31,247 nt of DNA from a virus. This document shows positions 8,631 to 15,972 of this stretch, in pieces. The translations under genes were made by a program, and so were the position numbers. Within the stretch, counting starts at the first letter, position 1; every line of letters begins with the position of its first letter. Location: IMG/VR virus record IMGVR_UViG_3300043570_002009, positions 1 through 31,247 of that record, one strand, 5' to 3'. The notes under the pieces were generated by a model. It had not been told where the DNA came from. It worked only from the letters and a program-made list of their open reading frames with translations, and made no database searches.

Positions 8631-8679
8631 CTGAGGACCTACTGAGGACCTACTGAGGACCTACTGAGGACCTACTGAG
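8631..8679. repeat. four tandem copies of an 11-bp repeat
   Basis: CTGAGGACCTA is repeated four times without change (8631-8641, 8642-8652, 8653-8663, 8664-8674) and followed by a partial copy CTGAG. The unit is not a multiple of three and lies just downstream of a stop codon, so it is noncoding. Length variation between isolates by slippage is likely. Confidence 0.9.
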
Positions 8680-9758: not shown

Positions 9759-9840
9759 ATTCGAAAGGCACTGGGATGGACGTGGAGGCTGTCTGACACT
9801 TTTTGAGGGCAGTCCAACGCCGGCGTGGTTTTCTTTTCTG
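9759..9840 (+). ncRNA. candidate small RNA 1 (GGATGGACGTGGAG family)
   Basis: Predicted transcript of about 80 nt from the promoter at 9725. It opens with ATTCGAAAG, carries the family block GGGATGGACGTGGAGGCTG, and ends in a terminator-like hairpin: CCA-CG/CG-TGG with loop CCGG (9814-9828) followed by TTTTCTTTT. A six-codon frame (MDVEAV) sits in the conserved block. Two relatives lie at 9884 and 13677. No known RNA family was recognised. Confidence 0.5.
9814..9837 (+). terminator. terminator-like hairpin
   Basis: Short GC stem (9814-9819 with 9824-9828, one bulged A, loop CCGG) followed directly by TTTTCTTTT (9829-9837). It would end small RNA 1. Confidence 0.55.
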
Positions 9841-10235: not shown

Positions 10236-10258
10236 GTGTTGTTCTTCCTTCCTAATTG

Positions 10259-10275
10259 TTGACCAAACCGGTCAA
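10259..10275. promoter_or_regulatory. palindrome TTGACC-N5-GGTCAA
   Basis: Perfect 6-bp arms (10259-10264, 10270-10275), 7 bp upstream of the -35 box at 10283. It could be a protein-binding site or a short RNA stem at the end of the upstream transcript. Confidence 0.65.
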
Positions 10276-10282
10276 GTACCAC

Positions 10283-10310
10283 TTGCCATTCCTACCAAAA
10301 CCTGTATACT
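10283..10310 (+). promoter_or_regulatory. island cassette promoter
   Basis: TTGCCA (10283-10288), 16 bp, TATACT (10305-10310), with a leader ending in GAAAGAGG before the gene at 10339. Confidence 0.75.
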
Positions 10311-10338
10311 CTATCCATACATTGAAAGAGGTTAAAAA

Positions 10339-10563
10339 ATGCAAGTATTCTCCCTGCTAGGTTTCGTGGATTATGAAGGTTCCGAGTTGGTTGGTGTGTT
10401 CGGTTCCCTTGATGACCTCCTCTCCCATGTTCGGGAATCTCGGTTCTGGTTCGACGCCCTTGGCTATGTTGAATCGGCTCTCGGGCAAGTCCGGGCTGAT
10501 GATCGGGGAGATGTGGTTTATGTTCAATTCACCGACCAGGATGGCGTTGTTCATCCTTCCTAA
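10339..10563 (+). CDS. hypothetical island protein
   Basis: A 74-residue acidic protein. It has alternating strands and helices (MQVFSLLGFVDYEGSELVGV, then SLDDLLSHV), reminiscent of small phage proteins that report on or modulate something, but no family was recognised. The ATG follows GAAAGAGG and the cassette promoter at 10283. A relic of a relative's 3' end lies upstream at 10232-10255. Confidence 0.7.
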   Translation: MQVFSLLGFVDYEGSELVGVFGSLDDLLSHVRESRFWFDALGYVESALGQVRADDRGDVVYVQFTDQDGVVHPS

Positions 10564-10566
10564 TAC

Positions 10567-10583
10567 ACGACCGGAATGGTCAA
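10567..10583. promoter_or_regulatory. imperfect palindrome with conserved GGTCAA arm
   Basis: ACGACC (10567-10572) and GGTCAA (10578-10583) with a 5-bp spacer, 7 bp from the -35 box. The right arm matches the island consensus and the left arm has two changes. Confidence 0.55.
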
Positions 10584-10590
10584 GTACCAC

Positions 10591-10618
10591 TTGCCATTCC
10601 TACCAAGTCCTGTATACT
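10591..10618 (+). promoter_or_regulatory. promoter of the GP88-family gene
   Basis: TTGCCA (10591-10596), 16 bp, TATACT (10613-10618), followed by the common leader CCATACACTGAAAC and AAAAGG before the ATG at 10651. Confidence 0.78.
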
Positions 10619-10650
10619 CCAATCCATACACTGAAACAAAAGGCTCTATT

Positions 10651-11397
10651 ATGAATCTACTCTCCACCGGCAACCCTAAGGTCCTCAAAGGTCAAAAACA
10701 AGGTTATATGACCTTCATCCTCCACCTTGCACCGGCTTCGGTCTCCGGTTATAATACTTGCCCCAAGGCTACCAAAGGTTGTAAGGCGGCGTGCCTTAAC
10801 CTTGCTGGTCGTGGTGGTATGTTCCGCAAGGGTGAATTTACTAATGTAATTCAGAAGGCACGTATCCGCAAGACTAAAATGTTTTTTGAGAATCGTTCCA
10901 TATTCATGGAGTTATTGGTTAAGGATATTGTCCTTGGTATTAAACAGGCGGAGAAAAAGGATATGGTTCCTGTATTCCGCCTGAATGGCACCTCTGATAT
11001 TGCATGGGAAAAGTATTCGGTTATCCGTTCTGGTGTTGAATATGCCAATATCTTCCTTGCATTCCCCGAGGTTACCTTCTATGATTACACCAAAATACTT
11101 GGTCGTAAGGTATCACTCGCCAATTATTCTCTTACATTCTCGGATGCCGATGGTAATGATTCTGATGTGGTGAAAGCCATTTCCCAAGGTTACAATATCG
11201 CAACCGTGTTTGGTGTCAAGAAAACGGCTGCTCTTCCATTGTCTTACCGTGGTATCCCAGTATTCAATGGCGACGAATCAGACCTCCGCTTCCTTGATCC
11301 TAAAGGTGTGGTTGTCGGGCTCTATGCCAAAGGTCCTGCAAAGAAGGATACTTCCGGCTTCGTGAAATACCCCTCCATTATGATGGCAACCGCTTGA
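10651..11397 (+). CDS. GP88-family phage protein
   Basis: A 248-residue protein of the family I recognise as 'gene product 88' (GP88/DUF7227-like), widespread in phages and of unknown function. The hallmark is an N-terminal cysteine motif C37-x6-C44-x3-C48 (TCPKATKGCKAAC), then an Arg-rich NVIQKARIRKT segment, RLNGTSDIAWE near residue 112, FYDYTK near 144 and NYSLTFS near 159. The cysteines suggest metal or iron-sulfur binding; the alternating strand-helix pattern suggests a barrel. Both are inference. The ATG at 10651 follows AAAGG and a strong promoter; an upstream in-frame start would run through that promoter. Confidence 0.8.
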   Translation: MNLLSTGNPKVLKGQKQGYMTFILHLAPASVSGYNTCPKATKGCKAACLNLAGRGGMFRKGEFTNVIQKARIRKTKMFFENRSIFMELLVKDIVLGIKQAEKKDMVPVFRLNGTSDIAWEKYSVIRSGVEYANIFLAFPEVTFYDYTKILGRKVSLANYSLTFSDADGNDSDVVKAISQGYNIATVFGVKKTAALPLSYRGIPVFNGDESDLRFLDPKGVVVGLYAKGPAKKDTSGFVKYPSIMMATA

Positions 11398-11431
11398 ATT
11401 TATTAATTAATTGAAAAGAAAAGGATATATT

Positions 11432-11620
11432 ATGACTAAAGTTTACGTGGTCCGCGCCCAGAATTATGGTAACCCGGAGTCCTTCCTGTGCGGGCTCTAT
11501 CCCACCGAGGCGGACGCCGGAGCCCGTATTGCAGTCCTCAAGGGTGACGAATATGGATTTTCATATGCATGGTATGATGAAGTGAAGGTTTCCCCAACTT
11601 CTGGCGATTGTCTAATCTAA
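11432..11620 (+). CDS. hypothetical island protein
   Basis: A 62-residue soluble protein opening with two strands (TKVYVVRAQNYG) and ending in YDEVKV. The ATG at 11432 is preferred over one 21 bp upstream because AAAGGA lies in front of it. It has no promoter of its own and probably shares the GP88 transcript. No family recognised. Confidence 0.65.
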   Translation: MTKVYVVRAQNYGNPESFLCGLYPTEADAGARIAVLKGDEYGFSYAWYDEVKVSPTSGDCLI

Positions 11621-11638
11621 TATTGCTCTATTCATAAT
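11608..11638 (+). promoter_or_regulatory. weak promoter candidate, leaderless-type
   Basis: CATAAT (11633-11638) is followed by GGGCTCCATGAAAC, which parallels the GGACTCTATTGAAAC leader of other island promoters. The best -35, TTGTCT (11608-11613), is 19 bp away, so the promoter is weaker than its relatives. Confidence 0.4.
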
Positions 11639-11645
11639 GGGCTCC

Positions 11646-11855
11646 ATGAAACAAACGAACCGTTACATCCTCATTACCAAGACCGGGCGGACCATGGTGT
11701 TCTCCGTACAGTCCGTGGCTGACCTGTACCTTTCCCTCTACGGAGGCGCTCTCACAATACTCCAGCCCTCCGGTCGTGTATTGGTTGCCAAACCGAAGGA
11801 AACCTGTACAATGGGCTCTATTGAATCGAAAAAGGAAATAAAATGCTTCAAGTAA
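11646..11855 (+). CDS. hypothetical island protein, possibly leaderless
   Basis: A 69-residue protein with two strands (RYILITKTG, RTMVFSV) and a helix. No ribosome site is visible; the ATG lies 8 bp after a CATAAT box, where transcription should begin. An alternative ATG at 11637 overlaps that box. The last 20 or so codons are read from the promoter and leader of the next gene (11785-11835), so the C terminus is probably an extension gained when the original stop was lost. Confidence 0.55.
   Translation: MKQTNRYILITKTGRTMVFSVQSVADLYLSLYGGALTILQPSGRVLVAKPKETCTMGSIESKKEIKCFK
11785..11812 (+). promoter_or_regulatory. promoter within the end of the upstream gene
   Basis: TTGCCA (11785-11790), 16 bp, TACAAT (11807-11812). 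The leader GGGCTCTATTGAATCG runs to AAAAAGGA before the ATG at 11843. Confidence 0.72.
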
Positions 11856-12046
11856 TCCAGAACGAATTGACAGGTACCTACTCCGTGTTCAACGTGGTGA
11901 GTACCGGCACCTCCGTCCGCGGAGAGTCCCTCACGCAGCCGATGACGGAAGCCGATGCTCTTGAGGTTCTGGAAGACCTTCATATCATGGCTTGCTCTGT
12001 CCAGCAGGAACAATACAATTCCCAGGAATGCGAATTCGACCGATAA
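11843..12046 (+). CDS. hypothetical island protein
   Basis: A 67-residue acidic protein starting MLQVIQNELTGTYSVFNVVS and ending in a helix. The shape resembles the gene at 10339 (strands, then an acidic helix), but sequence similarity is slight. The ATG follows AAAAAGGAAATAAA. It overlaps the preceding frame by 13 bp. Confidence 0.65.
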   Translation: MLQVIQNELTGTYSVFNVVSTGTSVRGESLTQPMTEADALEVLEDLHIMACSVQQEQYNSQECEFDR

Positions 12047-12082
12047 TACTCCAGCCCTCCGGTCAAGTAATGTCGCTGCGCC

Positions 12083-12110
12083 TTGCCATTCCCACCAAAG
12101 CCTGTATACT
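12083..12110 (+). promoter_or_regulatory. promoter of the island AAA+ ATPase
   Basis: TTGCCA (12083-12088), 16 bp, TATACT (12105-12110). A GGTCAA half-site lies at 12061-12066, 16 bp upstream. Confidence 0.75.
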
Positions 12111-12137
12111 CCAGTCCATAATATGAAAGGTTCTCCA

Positions 12138-12995
12138 ATGATTCCAGTCTCCTTCGCCAACGGTAAGTATTCCGCAGTTATCAACGGCAAGACCGTGACC
12201 CGCACCAATAAGGCGCACATGGACTACGTTATTAAACGGGCAACCTCCACGGGTGTATCGTTCACCTCCGCCCCTCAATTGTTCGAGGCAGTAAAATCAG
12301 ATTTCTCCGTGATTGAACGGTTCGAATTCATTGGCCAGTTTGTGCGCCTATTGGCTAAAGGTGCAATTAATTCCTTTGTGCTAACTGGTTCTGGTGGTAT
12401 TGGCAAGACCACTGCCGTTATGAAAACCCTCAAGGCTATTGGTCTCAAGGAAGACCTGCCAGGTCAGGACGGCAATTATATGGTTATTCGTGGTTTCTCC
12501 ACTCCCCGTGCCCTGTATGACACACTCTATCAATTCAAGGACAAAATTCTGGTCCTCGATGACGCCGATGCCATCTTCAAGGATCCACTGGGTGCCAATC
12601 TTATCAAGGCGGCACTTGATGACAAGCCAGTCCGTGTACTTAACTGGTCCACTTCCCGTGAAGGTGACTCCGAAACACCAACGCGGTTTATTTACACTGG
12701 CAAGATGATTTTCATCTCCAATATGTCAATCAACCAGTTTCCGCAGGCTATTATCTCGCGGTCGCAAAAGGTCGATGTATCACTAGATACTGAAGAAAAG
12801 CTGGAGATTATCGCCGAGATTTTCAAAGATATCGACCATGATGAAGCCGAGAAAATGGATGTCCTTGAATTCGTGAAAGAAAATGCAGATACCGCCAAGG
12901 ACCTCAATATCCGCTCTGCCGTGTCCTTGCTTACACTCCGCCAGAATTTCGGCGCAAAGTGGGCACGTATTGCCAAGTATTCATTCTGTAACTAA
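12138..12995 (+). CDS. phage AAA+ ATPase
   Basis: A 285-residue P-loop ATPase. Walker A is GSGGIGKT (residues 84-91), Walker B is ILVLDDADAIF (D141), and a sensor-like MIFISNMS with a conserved R in ISRSQKVDV follows. GFSTPRALYDTLY between the motifs is typical of a phage ATPase family found in many myoviruses, role unknown. The N terminus (strand-rich, residues 1-60) may bind a partner. The start at 12138 is preferred because AAAGG precedes it; an in-frame ATG at 12123 is nearer the transcription start. It heads a short operon with 13008 and 13187. Confidence 0.82.
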   Translation: MIPVSFANGKYSAVINGKTVTRTNKAHMDYVIKRATSTGVSFTSAPQLFEAVKSDFSVIERFEFIGQFVRLLAKGAINSFVLTGSGGIGKTTAVMKTLKAIGLKEDLPGQDGNYMVIRGFSTPRALYDTLYQFKDKILVLDDADAIFKDPLGANLIKAALDDKPVRVLNWSTSREGDSETPTRFIYTGKMIFISNMSINQFPQAIISRSQKVDVSLDTEEKLEIIAEIFKDIDHDEAEKMDVLEFVKENADTAKDLNIRSAVSLLTLRQNFGAKWARIAKYSFCN

Positions 12996-13007
12996 AAAGG
13001 AGATAAT

Positions 13008-13190
13008 ATGACCGATAACCAAAACCTCAGTTCTACCCCCGGCTATGTCCACTGGATGTATATGGTCGATTATATGACCAACGGCGGAAATGTCCATGTA
13101 GCCGATACAATGGCTAGTTGGATGGCATCCTCAGCCGGGCAGGTGTCCGCTGGGCGTACCCATAATCTACTGGCTAAACCCATACAATGA
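13008..13190 (+). CDS. hypothetical island protein
   Basis: A 60-residue protein with a Met/Trp-rich core (YVHWMYMVDYMTNGG, then MASWMASSAGQ). A strong AAGGAG ribosome site precedes it. It may be amphipathic, but there is no clear membrane helix. It is coupled to the next gene by an ATGA overlap. Confidence 0.65.
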   Translation: MTDNQNLSSTPGYVHWMYMVDYMTNGGNVHVADTMASWMASSAGQVSAGRTHNLLAKPIQ

Positions 13191-13378
13191 ACACCACTGT
13201 ACCCTTCGATTCGGTACCGATTCGTGCCGCCTTTTTAGATCCAAAAACCGGAATGCGGTACACCAAGGTCACCGACAATAGTGCCGAGTTGGAAACCCAG
13301 ACAAACAGGTGGAACCCGGTCCTTGAACGGTTCCGCTTTGGTCCGTCCGAAGAGGTTCAACCGCTAGGAAATAGTTGA
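13187..13378 (+). CDS. hypothetical island protein
   Basis: A 63-residue soluble protein with a strand-rich middle (AAFLDPKTGMRYTKV) and a NRWNPVLERFRFG tail. It ends the ATPase operon. Its TGA stop (13376-13378) lies inside the left arm of the following palindrome. Confidence 0.6.
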   Translation: MNTTVPFDSVPIRAAFLDPKTGMRYTKVTDNSAELETQTNRWNPVLERFRFGPSEEVQPLGNS

Positions 13379-13391
13379 CCAATCCGGTCAA
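13375..13391. promoter_or_regulatory. palindrome TTGACC-N5-GGTCAA containing a stop codon
   Basis: Perfect arms (13375-13380, 13386-13391) 7 bp before the -35 box. The TGA of the upstream gene is part of the left arm. Confidence 0.65.
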
Positions 13392-13398
13392 CTACTGG

Positions 13399-13427
13399 TT
13401 GCCATTTCCAGCCGCTTCCGCCATAAT
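13399..13427 (+). promoter_or_regulatory. island promoter, leaderless-type
   Basis: TTGCCA (13399-13404), 17 bp, CATAAT (13422-13427). The next ATG (13435) is 8 bp after the -10 box. Confidence 0.65.
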
Positions 13428-13434
13428 CCATTCC

Positions 13435-13617
13435 ATGATGAAAAACAAACCTCAACCAATGACCCGCATCCTGTTCTCCACCACCTTGGCTCTACAGGTG
13501 TGCCGGTATACGTCCATCCACCTGACCCAAGCCGGTTCCCTTTGGTGCGAGGCTTGGTCGACCGATGCCGACCTGGAGACCTTCCGCCTGAATGGATGGA
13601 AATTCGACCTGCTATAA
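13435..13617 (+). CDS. hypothetical island protein, probably leaderless
   Basis: A 60-residue protein. The strand-rich core TRILFSTTLALQVCRYTSIH and the end GWKFDLL show no family. There is no ribosome site: the ATG at 13435 (or 13438) coincides with the predicted transcription start. Longer upstream frames would run through the promoter. Confidence 0.55.
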   Translation: MMKNKPQPMTRILFSTTLALQVCRYTSIHLTQAGSLWCEAWSTDADLETFRLNGWKFDLL

Positions 13618-13641
13618 CCCAGAGGTCCGGTCAACTACTGG

Positions 13642-13670
13642 TTGCCGGATTGAGGAAATGCCTGTATAAT
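13642..13670 (+). promoter_or_regulatory. promoter of candidate RNA 4
   Basis: TTGCCG (13642-13647), 17 bp, TATAAT (13665-13670), 7 bp downstream of a GGTCAA half-site. Confidence 0.65.
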
Positions 13671-13676
13671 GGACTA

Positions 13677-13870
13677 CAATTCGAAGCAAAGGGCAGGGTG
13701 GACGTGGAGAGTGGGCGTTGATTTTCAAGCTCCGAACCAAAGCTCCAGGATCAACGGAGAGCATTCAGAAGGTGCCAATACACCGGAGACATTGGAGGCG
13801 CTCCAGGGCGCTCAATTCGATTCAAGGTGACAGGTGCAGGTGCCGACCTTCCGAGGTCAATCGGTGAATA
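13677..13870 (+). ncRNA. candidate small RNA 4, diverged relative of RNAs 1 and 2
   Basis: After the promoter the transcript begins with ATTCGAAG and then GGGTGGACGTGGAG, matching the conserved block of the RNAs at 9759 and 9884. Possible stems are CGTTGAT/ATCAACG (13716-13722, 13750-13756) and CCAAT/ATTGG further on. The end is not clear. The weaker match and longer length make this the least certain of the three relatives. Confidence 0.4.
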
Positions 13871-13871
13871 C

Positions 13872-13888
13872 TTGACCGGATTGGTCAA
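13872..13888. promoter_or_regulatory. palindrome TTGACC-N5-GGTCAA
   Basis: Perfect arms (13872-13877, 13883-13888) with spacer GGATT, 14 bp upstream of the -35 box. Confidence 0.65.
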
Positions 13889-13902
13889 GAACTAAAAAAT
13901 GG

Positions 13903-13930
13903 TTGCCAAACCGTGCTGGACCTGTATAAT
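13903..13930 (+). promoter_or_regulatory. island cassette promoter
   Basis: TTGCCA (13903-13908), 16 bp, TATAAT (13925-13930). The leader GGACTCTATTGAAACGCAAC is shared with the promoter at 14882. Confidence 0.78.
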
Positions 13931-13961
13931 GGACTCTATTGAAACGCAACAAGGGCACACA

Positions 13962-14159
13962 ATGAATCAATCAATGACCACCGGGCAAGCCAGGCAAATT
14001 GTCAACCAATACGGCATCCGTATCAATGCAGCCGATTTCATGGATTGTATAGAATCAATGGATGACAACCTTTTCCAACTCACGGTCGCCGAACGGTCGG
14101 CTTATTTGATTTTGGTGCATGAAATGGACAATATGTCGGACGTTTGTAATGCTTGGTAA
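13962..14159 (+). CDS. hypothetical island protein
   Basis: A 65-residue helical protein (TGQARQIVNQYGIRINAADF, then a DDNLFQLTVAERSAY helix). The ATG follows AAGGGCACACA. A longer upstream frame would be translated promoter and is rejected. No family recognised. It overlaps the next gene by 11 bp. Confidence 0.65.
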   Translation: MNQSMTTGQARQIVNQYGIRINAADFMDCIESMDDNLFQLTVAERSAYLILVHEMDNMSDVCNAW

Positions 14160-14409
14160 AATATACTTCAACAAGGCGATATCCCATAATCAAATGGGGG
14201 GTAAAAAAGTATTATTGGTTCCATTTACTATGGCGTCCAAAGGTTACTCTTTTCTCCATGAGTCGGATTATAATCTTACACTGAACGAACGGAATACTAA
14301 AAACGATATTGCCGATAGAATAATCACAGCCTTACTTAAGGCCGGGATTGCACAGGATAATATTGGAATCATTAGTTTTTCAACAATGCATATCACAATC
14401 AAGGTTTGA
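14149..14409 (+). CDS. hypothetical island protein
   Basis: An 86-residue protein. The region from KKVLLVPFTMASKGYSF to ITIKV alternates strands and helices (NTKNDIADRIITALLKAG, then IGIISFSTMH). The start is uncertain: ATG 14149 overlaps the upstream gene, ATG 14194 would give 71 residues, and neither has a good ribosome site. Its bases are more AT-rich than the neighbours. Confidence 0.6.
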   Translation: MLGKIYFNKAISHNQMGGKKVLLVPFTMASKGYSFLHESDYNLTLNERNTKNDIADRIITALLKAGIAQDNIGIISFSTMHITIKV

Positions 14410-14415
14410 CAATTC

Positions 14416-14432
14416 TTGACCGGATTGGTCAA
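14416..14432. promoter_or_regulatory. palindrome TTGACC-N5-GGTCAA
   Basis: Perfect arms (14416-14421, 14427-14432) with spacer GGATT, 7 bp before the -35 box. The 17-bp palindrome is identical to the copy at 13872. Confidence 0.68.
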
Positions 14433-14439
14433 GAACTGG

Positions 14440-14467
14440 TTGCCATCCGAAGCGGAACCTGTATAAT
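14440..14467 (+). promoter_or_regulatory. island promoter, leaderless-type
   Basis: TTGCCA (14440-14445), 16 bp, TATAAT (14462-14467). The next ATG (14475) is 8 bp after the -10 box. The usual leader text CTCTATTGAAACG is changed here to CTCTATGATAAACG, creating the start codon. Confidence 0.72.
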
Positions 14468-14474
14468 GGACTCT

Positions 14475-14849
14475 ATGATAAACGAAAACACTCTCCCCTC
14501 CTTCTCCGACCTCTCCGAGTTGGAACAACTTCAATCCATTTATTGGGACGCCTTCAAGGACGCCCATGGTGTCCGCCCCCGTGGTATCGACACCTCCGCC
14601 TGGACGGTTCAGGACTTCAAGGCTGAATTGGACTCCTTGGGCGAAATCGCCGACCGTGCCGAGGCAGTCCGGCGGTCAGGCGAAGCGGCGGCAGTGGAGG
14701 TACTAGAGGCGCGTATCGGAGACCTCCGCGACATTGGTGCAGGGGACCGTGCCACTGCCCTTGCATGGATCGCCGAGGCTGAGGGTGCCCAGAATGATAT
14801 GGAATATCTTTGCTTCCTGCTGGGACTTCCTTACGGCTATTTCAAATAA
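14475..14849 (+). CDS. hypothetical helical protein, probably leaderless
   Basis: A 124-residue protein, almost wholly helical, Ala/Glu-rich and GC-rich (SLGEIADRAEAVRRSGEAAA, then RATALAWIAEAEGA). HGVRPRGIDTSAW near residue 30 is a pattern seen in small phage proteins, function unknown. No ribosome site precedes the ATG; it lies at the predicted transcription start. Confidence 0.65.
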   Translation: MINENTLPSFSDLSELEQLQSIYWDAFKDAHGVRPRGIDTSAWTVQDFKAELDSLGEIADRAEAVRRSGEAAAVEVLEARIGDLRDIGAGDRATALAWIAEAEGAQNDMEYLCFLLGLPYGYFK

Positions 14850-14860
14850 CCCACCGGTTT

Positions 14861-14866
14861 GGTCAA
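14861..14866. promoter_or_regulatory. GGTCAA half-site
   Basis: The right arm GGTCAA is kept 15 bp upstream of the -35 box while the left arm (14850-14855, CCCACC) has decayed. The one-sided conservation favours a DNA element over an RNA stem. Confidence 0.5.
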
Positions 14867-14881
14867 CTATTAAAATAATGG

Positions 14882-14909
14882 TTGCCTATCTCAGCGGAAC
14901 CTGTATAAT
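14882..14909 (+). promoter_or_regulatory. island cassette promoter
   Basis: TTGCCT (14882-14887), 16 bp, TATAAT (14904-14909), followed by the common leader and AAAAAGGA before the ATG at 14941. Confidence 0.76.
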
Positions 14910-15943: not shown

Positions 15944-15972
15944 TTGCCTATCCCGGTGGTTTCTGTTATAAT
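15944..15972 (+). promoter_or_regulatory. TTGCCT-type promoter
   Basis: TTGCCT (15944-15949), 17 bp, TATAAT (15967-15972). It drives the long small-gene run 16002-19267. Confidence 0.8.

Follow-up and report, generated by a model that had tools for sequence, protein, structure and literature searches.

A gene island of a T4-like phage carries nine copies of a two-armed DNA element, each located directly upstream of a promoter. The island is part of a 31,247-base viral contig from IMG/VR (record IMGVR_UViG_3300043570_002009), a fragment rather than a full genome, which is referred to below in its entirety as the window. IscR is the Rrf2-family iron-sulfur (Fe-S) cluster sensor of bacteria. Judged by sequence, each element is quite probably an IscR type 1-like operator, at which IscR of the host would bind and modulate the adjacent promoter, so that the island would form a regulon tied to the Fe-S state of the cell.

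The element had been described in an original prediction, made from the letters of the window, as a palindrome TTGACC-N5-GGTCAA. Perfect copies are indeed present at positions 10259, 13375, 13872 and 14416, the only ones that the window contains, and the backwards control pattern gave no match. The degenerate copies were also recovered, as a whole site at 10567 and as right arms at 12061, 13629 and 14861, and all eight copies lie upstream of promoters of the form TTGCC[A/T/G]-16/17-[T/C]ATA[A/C]T. A ninth element had been overlooked because its right arm reads GGTCGT; its centre is at 11769, and the promoter at 11785 is 7 bp from it. That the right arm GGTCAA is kept in all copies while the left one decays was an impression gained from a small number of copies: besides the changed right arm of this ninth element, the other left arms (AATAACCC.., AATACTCC..) recur across many phages, unlike random decay, and both arms share one set of half-sites. 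Allowing up to three mismatches to the palindrome, the window contains 27 matches against 16.6 expected. Single degenerate copies are therefore weak on their own, and it is the location upstream of a promoter that gives them significance.

Related phages contain the same arrangement. When 2.9 million viral contigs were scanned for the palindrome together with a promoter, nine other contigs were found; two further scans, which fixed only the right arm and the promoter and so kept the left arm free of selection, added 36 loci. The left arm recurs in several forms, among them (T)AACCCAGC, (T)ACTCCAGC and GACCCACC, which are found as right arms too; the spacing between the arms is always 5 bp, and a single site is often shared by two divergent promoters. 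Fitting a motif iteratively to the 70-bp stretches ahead of 264 non-redundant phage promoters gave a 27-bp two-arm site, AATA-N-YYSASC-N5-GNTSRR-N-TATT. It scores above 8 bits at 104 of the 264 promoters, a share that is not an unbiased frequency because the loci were picked by the motif; no such score occurs in DNA that was shuffled or reversed. Distances between GGTCAA and the –35 box fall into two classes, 6-8 bp in 28 sites and 14-17 bp in 72. Of the 119 strong sites on non-redundant contigs, 117 are accompanied by a promoter at the proper distance, compared with 6.0 expected for random positions in the same islands (93 vs 2.5 under a strict promoter definition); the motif is thus far from equally common away from promoters.

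Six full-size genomes (157–176 kb) carry the strong sites in one island each, and most carriers have about 5-9 sites per genome or island. This confinement agrees with the earlier proposal of an island regulon under one regulator; the regulator, then called unknown, now has a strong candidate, suggested by operator similarity, in IscR of the host. Two comparison genomes have a single site at a promoter (G021) or none near a promoter (G022). Few of 80 relatives chosen by their GP88 protein alone carry the element, which is therefore restricted to a subset of these phages.

The two arms do not co-vary, which marks the element as a site in DNA rather than a stem in RNA. Among 100 sites, the arms pair at 58.0% of positions, compared with 58.5% when arms are shuffled among sites (P = 0.66), in line with the original prediction that a protein-bound site fits better than a stem. 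The two arm types, a (CA) and b (GG), mix freely (aa 18, ba 23, ab 11, bb 12). A transcript stem acting as terminator or stability element was considered, as the perfect inverted repeats lie just past stop codons and just ahead of promoters, where other promoters of these phages carry a GTTGY-loop-RCAAC hairpin. Moreover, the 43 sites without a GGTCAA right arm pair slightly above shuffled ones (62.4% vs 57.7%, P = 0.0035), an excess that may be due to shared ancestry or to a preference for symmetric sites. Yet arm shuffling over all 100 sites and the free mixing of arm types led us to reject the stem or terminator; in addition, the window sites have no T-run behind them, the sites serve divergent promoters on either side, and the two classes are mutually exclusive, with the hairpin present at 0 of 104 element promoters and at 43 of 158 promoters without an element. 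We consider an RNA hairpin extremely unlikely.

The hairpin found outside the island is an RNA-type element resembling the PeSLs of T4-type phages, and it never occurs together with the IscR-like one. In the window, promoters at 15944, 19285, 20830, 23759 and 27453 have it in the form TGTTGY-loop-RCAACA, as do many related contigs; it mostly lies 4-17 bp upstream of the –35 box, and its inner pairs are T-A, T-G and C-G. These promoter/stem-loop cassettes, reportedly described by Arbiol in 2010 and Comeau in 2014, are likewise short repeated promoter cassettes between small variable genes; they are stem-loops, whereas the island element is a DNA operator, and the GTTG..CAAC hairpins elsewhere are the PeSL-like feature (cited in PMC4503421).

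The published IscR type 1 consensus is a 25-bp sequence, ATASYYGACTRWWWYAGTCRRSTAT (PMC3899308, PMC6599224). The phage motif has the same 10+5+10 layout and agrees with it at nearly all conserved positions, the main departure being C/G in place of T/A beside the centre. Among 84,980 genomes of bacteria and archaea, a strict consensus derived from the phages matched at 22 places, of which 13 lie ahead of iscR in Pseudoalteromonas; a looser version matched three times in 398 Pseudomonadota genomes, each time upstream of iscR. For scans of bacterial loci we used a matrix trained solely on promoter-upstream phage DNA. Within 6.5 kb around iscR of E. coli MG1655, this matrix exceeds 5 bits at two sites alone, ATAGTTGACCAATTTACTCGGGAAT and ATACCCGACTAAATCAGTCAAGTAA, which precede the start of iscR by 96 and 121 bp. 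Both agree with the type 1 consensus, and we take them to be the characterised E. coli IscR sites. In 29 Pseudomonadota iscR loci of 3.4 kb each, the best match lies in the 250 bp before iscR in 24 cases, with 2.1 expected; the highest count was 11 among 300 column-scrambled matrices and 13 among 300 scrambles that preserved the palindrome. The literature consensus alone (≤5 mismatches) matches 12 times in 48.8 kb of phage islands vs twice in 988 kb outside them, and neither the IscR type 2 consensus nor a reversed control was enriched in the islands. Based on these matches, the identity of the site as an IscR-type operator is likely.

The likeness extends to details. Type 1 operators at iscR of E. 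coli, P. aeruginosa and Pseudoalteromonas share with the phage sites the 25-27 bp layout of two half-sites around a 5-bp centre, the ATA-S-YYGAC arms with their flanks, and a partial asymmetry of the half-sites. Site B of P. aeruginosa begins with ATAGTTGACC, the arm of window element 5, and hybrid a/b arms occur in bacteria too, as at the iscR promoter of locus L274 (TATACTTGACCAGAGTGCTGGGTTATT; compare ATTCTTGACCGGAGTGCTGGGTATTGG in phage G003). The phage sites differ in standing at many promoters of a T4-like phage, upstream of rather than over the –35 box, in having C/G beside the centre more commonly than T/A, and in the frequent extra arm form YYCANC, which is also present at one bacterial iscR promoter. 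FNR/CRP-type sites were dropped as candidates, since their spacing and flanks are different.

Several observations weigh against this assignment. In a lower-scoring group of iscR genes, whose products start MKLTT[RK]GRYAVTAMLD..., about 17 short loci were scanned and a single site above 15 bits was present within 250 bp; because most of these genes are without a matching site, the operator match is limited to part of the Pseudomonadota. The b arm (YYCANC), found throughout the phages, is absent from the E. coli consensus. The bacterial operators compared may not be those of the host: a nucleotide search of 50,697 annotated phage records gave no close relative of the window or island, and no host could be named because the closest isolates are 30-52% identical for single proteins. 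Bacterial iscR sites overlap the –35/–10 region; those of the phages are found ahead of the –35 box instead. Finally, the pho boxes of cyanophages warn that predicted host-factor sites may be only partly borne out, as gel shifts confirmed only part of those predictions (PMC10976474).

Who reads the sites? Host IscR is the likely reader, since a search for Rrf2 proteins (PF02082) found none in 23 phage records, six of which are the full-size element carriers, while control genomes were positive. By analogy with other type 1 sites, it would probably bind in its [2Fe-2S] form. Alternatively, a phage-encoded DNA-binding protein of another family could act on sites that have converged on the IscR operator, as a phage-internal switch. 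All sites lie in one phage island, for which an own regulator would be the usual solution, and two small island families, a basic coiled-coil protein and a small helix-turn-helix-like protein, were tested as candidates. Both were rejected because their presence does not track the element: the coiled-coil protein is missing from the full-size carrier G005 and present in phages with few or no sites, and the helix-turn-helix-like protein is lacking in G003, G005, G010 and G013 and occurs in G021–G023. Convergence over ~25 positions with bacterial iscR promoters is also hard to envisage. Together with the lack of an Rrf2 protein in the 23 records, these points make a phage-encoded regulator unlikely.

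When the six genomes with the element were set against G022, G021 and G023, the main protein to remain was an AAA ATPase of the T4 nrdC.10 family, which is present in all six, is not found in the other three and is itself encoded behind an element. AbrB-like proteins were also rejected as the regulator because they are present in the comparison genomes as well. Judged by eye, one small window protein (2226-2465) resembles AbrB/SpoVT-type DNA-binding proteins; it has relatives both in phages that carry the element and in others.

In the proposed mechanism, a dimer of host IscR would bind two half-sites of ~10 bp, (A)ATASYYGAC[C/T] and its mirror image, placed 5 bp apart, and modulate the adjacent σ70-type promoter, which would tie the island to the Fe-S state of the host and thereby to iron, oxygen and oxidants. 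The bacterial mechanism is not simply transferable, because the phage sites are upstream of the –35 box, centred at about –50 or –58. At bacterial iscR promoters, the TTGAC of the site itself is positioned as the –35 box; the phage promoters have good –35 and –10 boxes of their own, so that occlusion of the core promoter by IscR is not the obvious mechanism. The usual type 1 location over the core promoter, which goes with repression and is not strictly defining, is thus not found here. This weakens simple occlusion but not the claim that IscR binds. From an upstream site, interference with or recruitment of the α C-terminal domain would be conceivable. Type 1 sites are bound solely by [2Fe-2S]-IscR, and all known E. 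coli type 1 promoters are repressed (PMC8561392), which makes repression the leading guess here by analogy, with about even chances. Activation is a possible but clearly less probable outcome, and something else, such as titration or insulation, is less probable still.

Taken as the main purpose, titration would mean that the sites serve as decoys for host IscR during phage replication and derepress the isc operon, with promoter control secondary. The 5-9 sites per genome would be multiplied by replication, and the phage might need Fe-S clusters if GP88, which is often encoded behind the elements, is an Fe-S protein. Decoys, however, need no defined position, and the two narrow distances to the –35 box are kept, which makes titration as the main purpose very unlikely.

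As first gene behind an element-promoter pair, we took 143 open reading frames from 32 contigs. The commonest family is GP88 (PF17338), found in 11 contigs and in a second, divergent form in four more, followed by the nrdC.10-family AAA ATPase (10), the basic coiled-coil protein (nine open reading frames in eight contigs) and several small orphans. Both divergent GP88 forms stand behind elements, one in the window (10651..11397, plus strand; Pfam E = 7.4e-39) and one at L096:5124-5762. The aligned form has three invariant cysteines, C37, C44 and C48 in the window protein, and their C-x6-C-x3-C spacing is the same in all 20 aligned members. The predicted fold is of moderate confidence (pLDDT 66), and its best structural matches include several radical SAM enzymes, QueE, PFL activase, NifB and viperin, with Z of 5-5.6, below the level of a clear match; Foldseek with the model returned nothing below E 0.08, and a sequence search of the PDB gave no match. 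As a hint from the model, GP88 may be an Fe-S enzyme, possibly with a radical-SAM-like fold, and an Fe-S enzyme behind the site of an Fe-S sensor would make sense.

A wider scenario would be that a widespread T4-like lineage has brought operators of host IscR to a place ahead of the –35 boxes throughout its island, that Fe-S status sets the expression of host-takeover genes including a perhaps radical-SAM-like GP88, and that the multiplying operators also titrate IscR and so raise Fe-S supply. We regard this combination as speculative and rather unlikely. If host IscR does read the sites, this would be the first case known to us of phage genes wired to a bacterial Fe-S cluster sensor. Iron supply, oxygen and oxidative stress would then set part of the phage program, the promoters would form a testable set, operator variants could serve for host prediction, and the widespread orphan family GP88 would gain a lead to its function.

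Phages that exploit host regulators are already known, and IscR-type sites on phage promoters, as proposed here from sequence comparison, would be new; no report of them was found in the literature searched. In T4-like cyanophages, sites of a host environmental regulator, the pho boxes of PhoB, likewise lie upstream of phage promoters, and that regulator is likewise not phage-encoded (PMC10976474). Those boxes belong to a phosphate two-component system, whereas the candidate here is an Rrf2-family Fe-S sensor, and the present array of predicted sites is denser, is limited to a single island and recurs in dozens of contigs. For phage K5 of P. aeruginosa, the host DNA-binding protein SrpA is reported to act by way of a palindrome ahead of one phage gene; protein family and site are different there, and one phage promoter is concerned, not an island (PMC5945682).

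The window is a piece of a T4-like phage, since it encodes a T4-type RNase H, a phrog_459 peptidase, an RNA ligase and several AAA proteins. All of its elements and their promoters are on the plus strand. GGTCAA and the –35 box are 7 bp apart where the latter starts at 10283, 10591, 13399, 13642 and 14440, and 14, 15 and 16 bp apart at 13903, 14882 and 12083, respectively. Element 1 (10254..10280, AATTGTTGACCAAACCGGTCAAGTACC, score 28.0, perfect core palindrome, 7 bp) and its promoter TTGCCA-16-TATACT (10283..10310) precede an open reading frame of 74 amino acids (10339-10563). Element 2 (10562..10588, AATACACGACCGGAATGGTCAAGTACC, score 25.7, 7 bp) is followed by the GP88 promoter, TTGCCA-16-TATACT at 10591..10618, and element 3 (11756..11782, AATACTCCAGCCCTCCGGTCGTGTATT, score 27.5, 7 bp) by TTGCCA-16-TACAAT at 11785..11812. 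Behind element 4 (12045..12071, AATACTCCAGCCCTCCGGTCAAGTAAT, score 28.2, 16 bp), TTGCCA-16-TATACT (12083..12110) is the promoter of the nrdC.10-family AAA ATPase (phrog_1250, 12138..12995, plus strand). A near-identical stretch, AATACTCCAGCCCTCCGGTC, at 11755-11775 and 12044-12064, ahead of these two successive promoters, is a sign of cassette duplication by recombination.

Further downstream, element 5 (13370..13396, AATAGTTGACCAATCCGGTCAACTACT, score 32.0, 7 bp) precedes TTGCCA-17-CATAAT (13399..13427), and element 6 (13613..13639, TATAACCCAGAGGTCCGGTCAACTACT, score 23.5, 7 bp) precedes TTGCCG-17-TATAAT (13642..13670), which starts a non-coding RNA-like leader (TTCGAA...TGGACGTGGAG). Element 7 (13867..13893, AATACTTGACCGGATTGGTCAAGAACT, score 31.8) is 14 bp from TTGCCA-16-TATAAT at 13903..13930. 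Next to element 8 (14411..14437, AATTCTTGACCGGATTGGTCAAGAACT, score 29.6, 7 bp), TTGCCA-16-TATAAT at 14440..14467 serves an open reading frame of 124 amino acids (14475-14849), and element 9 (14845..14871, AATAACCCACCGGTTTGGTCAACTATT, score 31.6) lies 15 bp before TTGCCT-16-TATAAT at 14882..14909. A third arrangement occurs in related contigs, where a perfect or near-perfect IscR-like site is placed ~57 bp from the –35 box with a conserved AATAAAATCAACAGCTTACCGGCGC-like spacer (L049 and L051 around 5059; L143 at 1176; L148 at 11543).

Several promoters are followed by a conserved transcript start, TATAAT-~10-TTCGAA-...-CTGGGGTGGACGTRGAGGCTG, in the window at 9760, 9885 and 13680 on the plus strand and also in G001, G002, G005, G007, G009, L125 and L137. 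An Rfam search of the window gave no match; by their appearance, these transcripts may form a family of small RNAs or leaders of phages that has no counterpart in Rfam. Four and a half perfect copies of the 11-bp unit CTGAGGACCTA lie at 8631-8679, on the left edge of the island.

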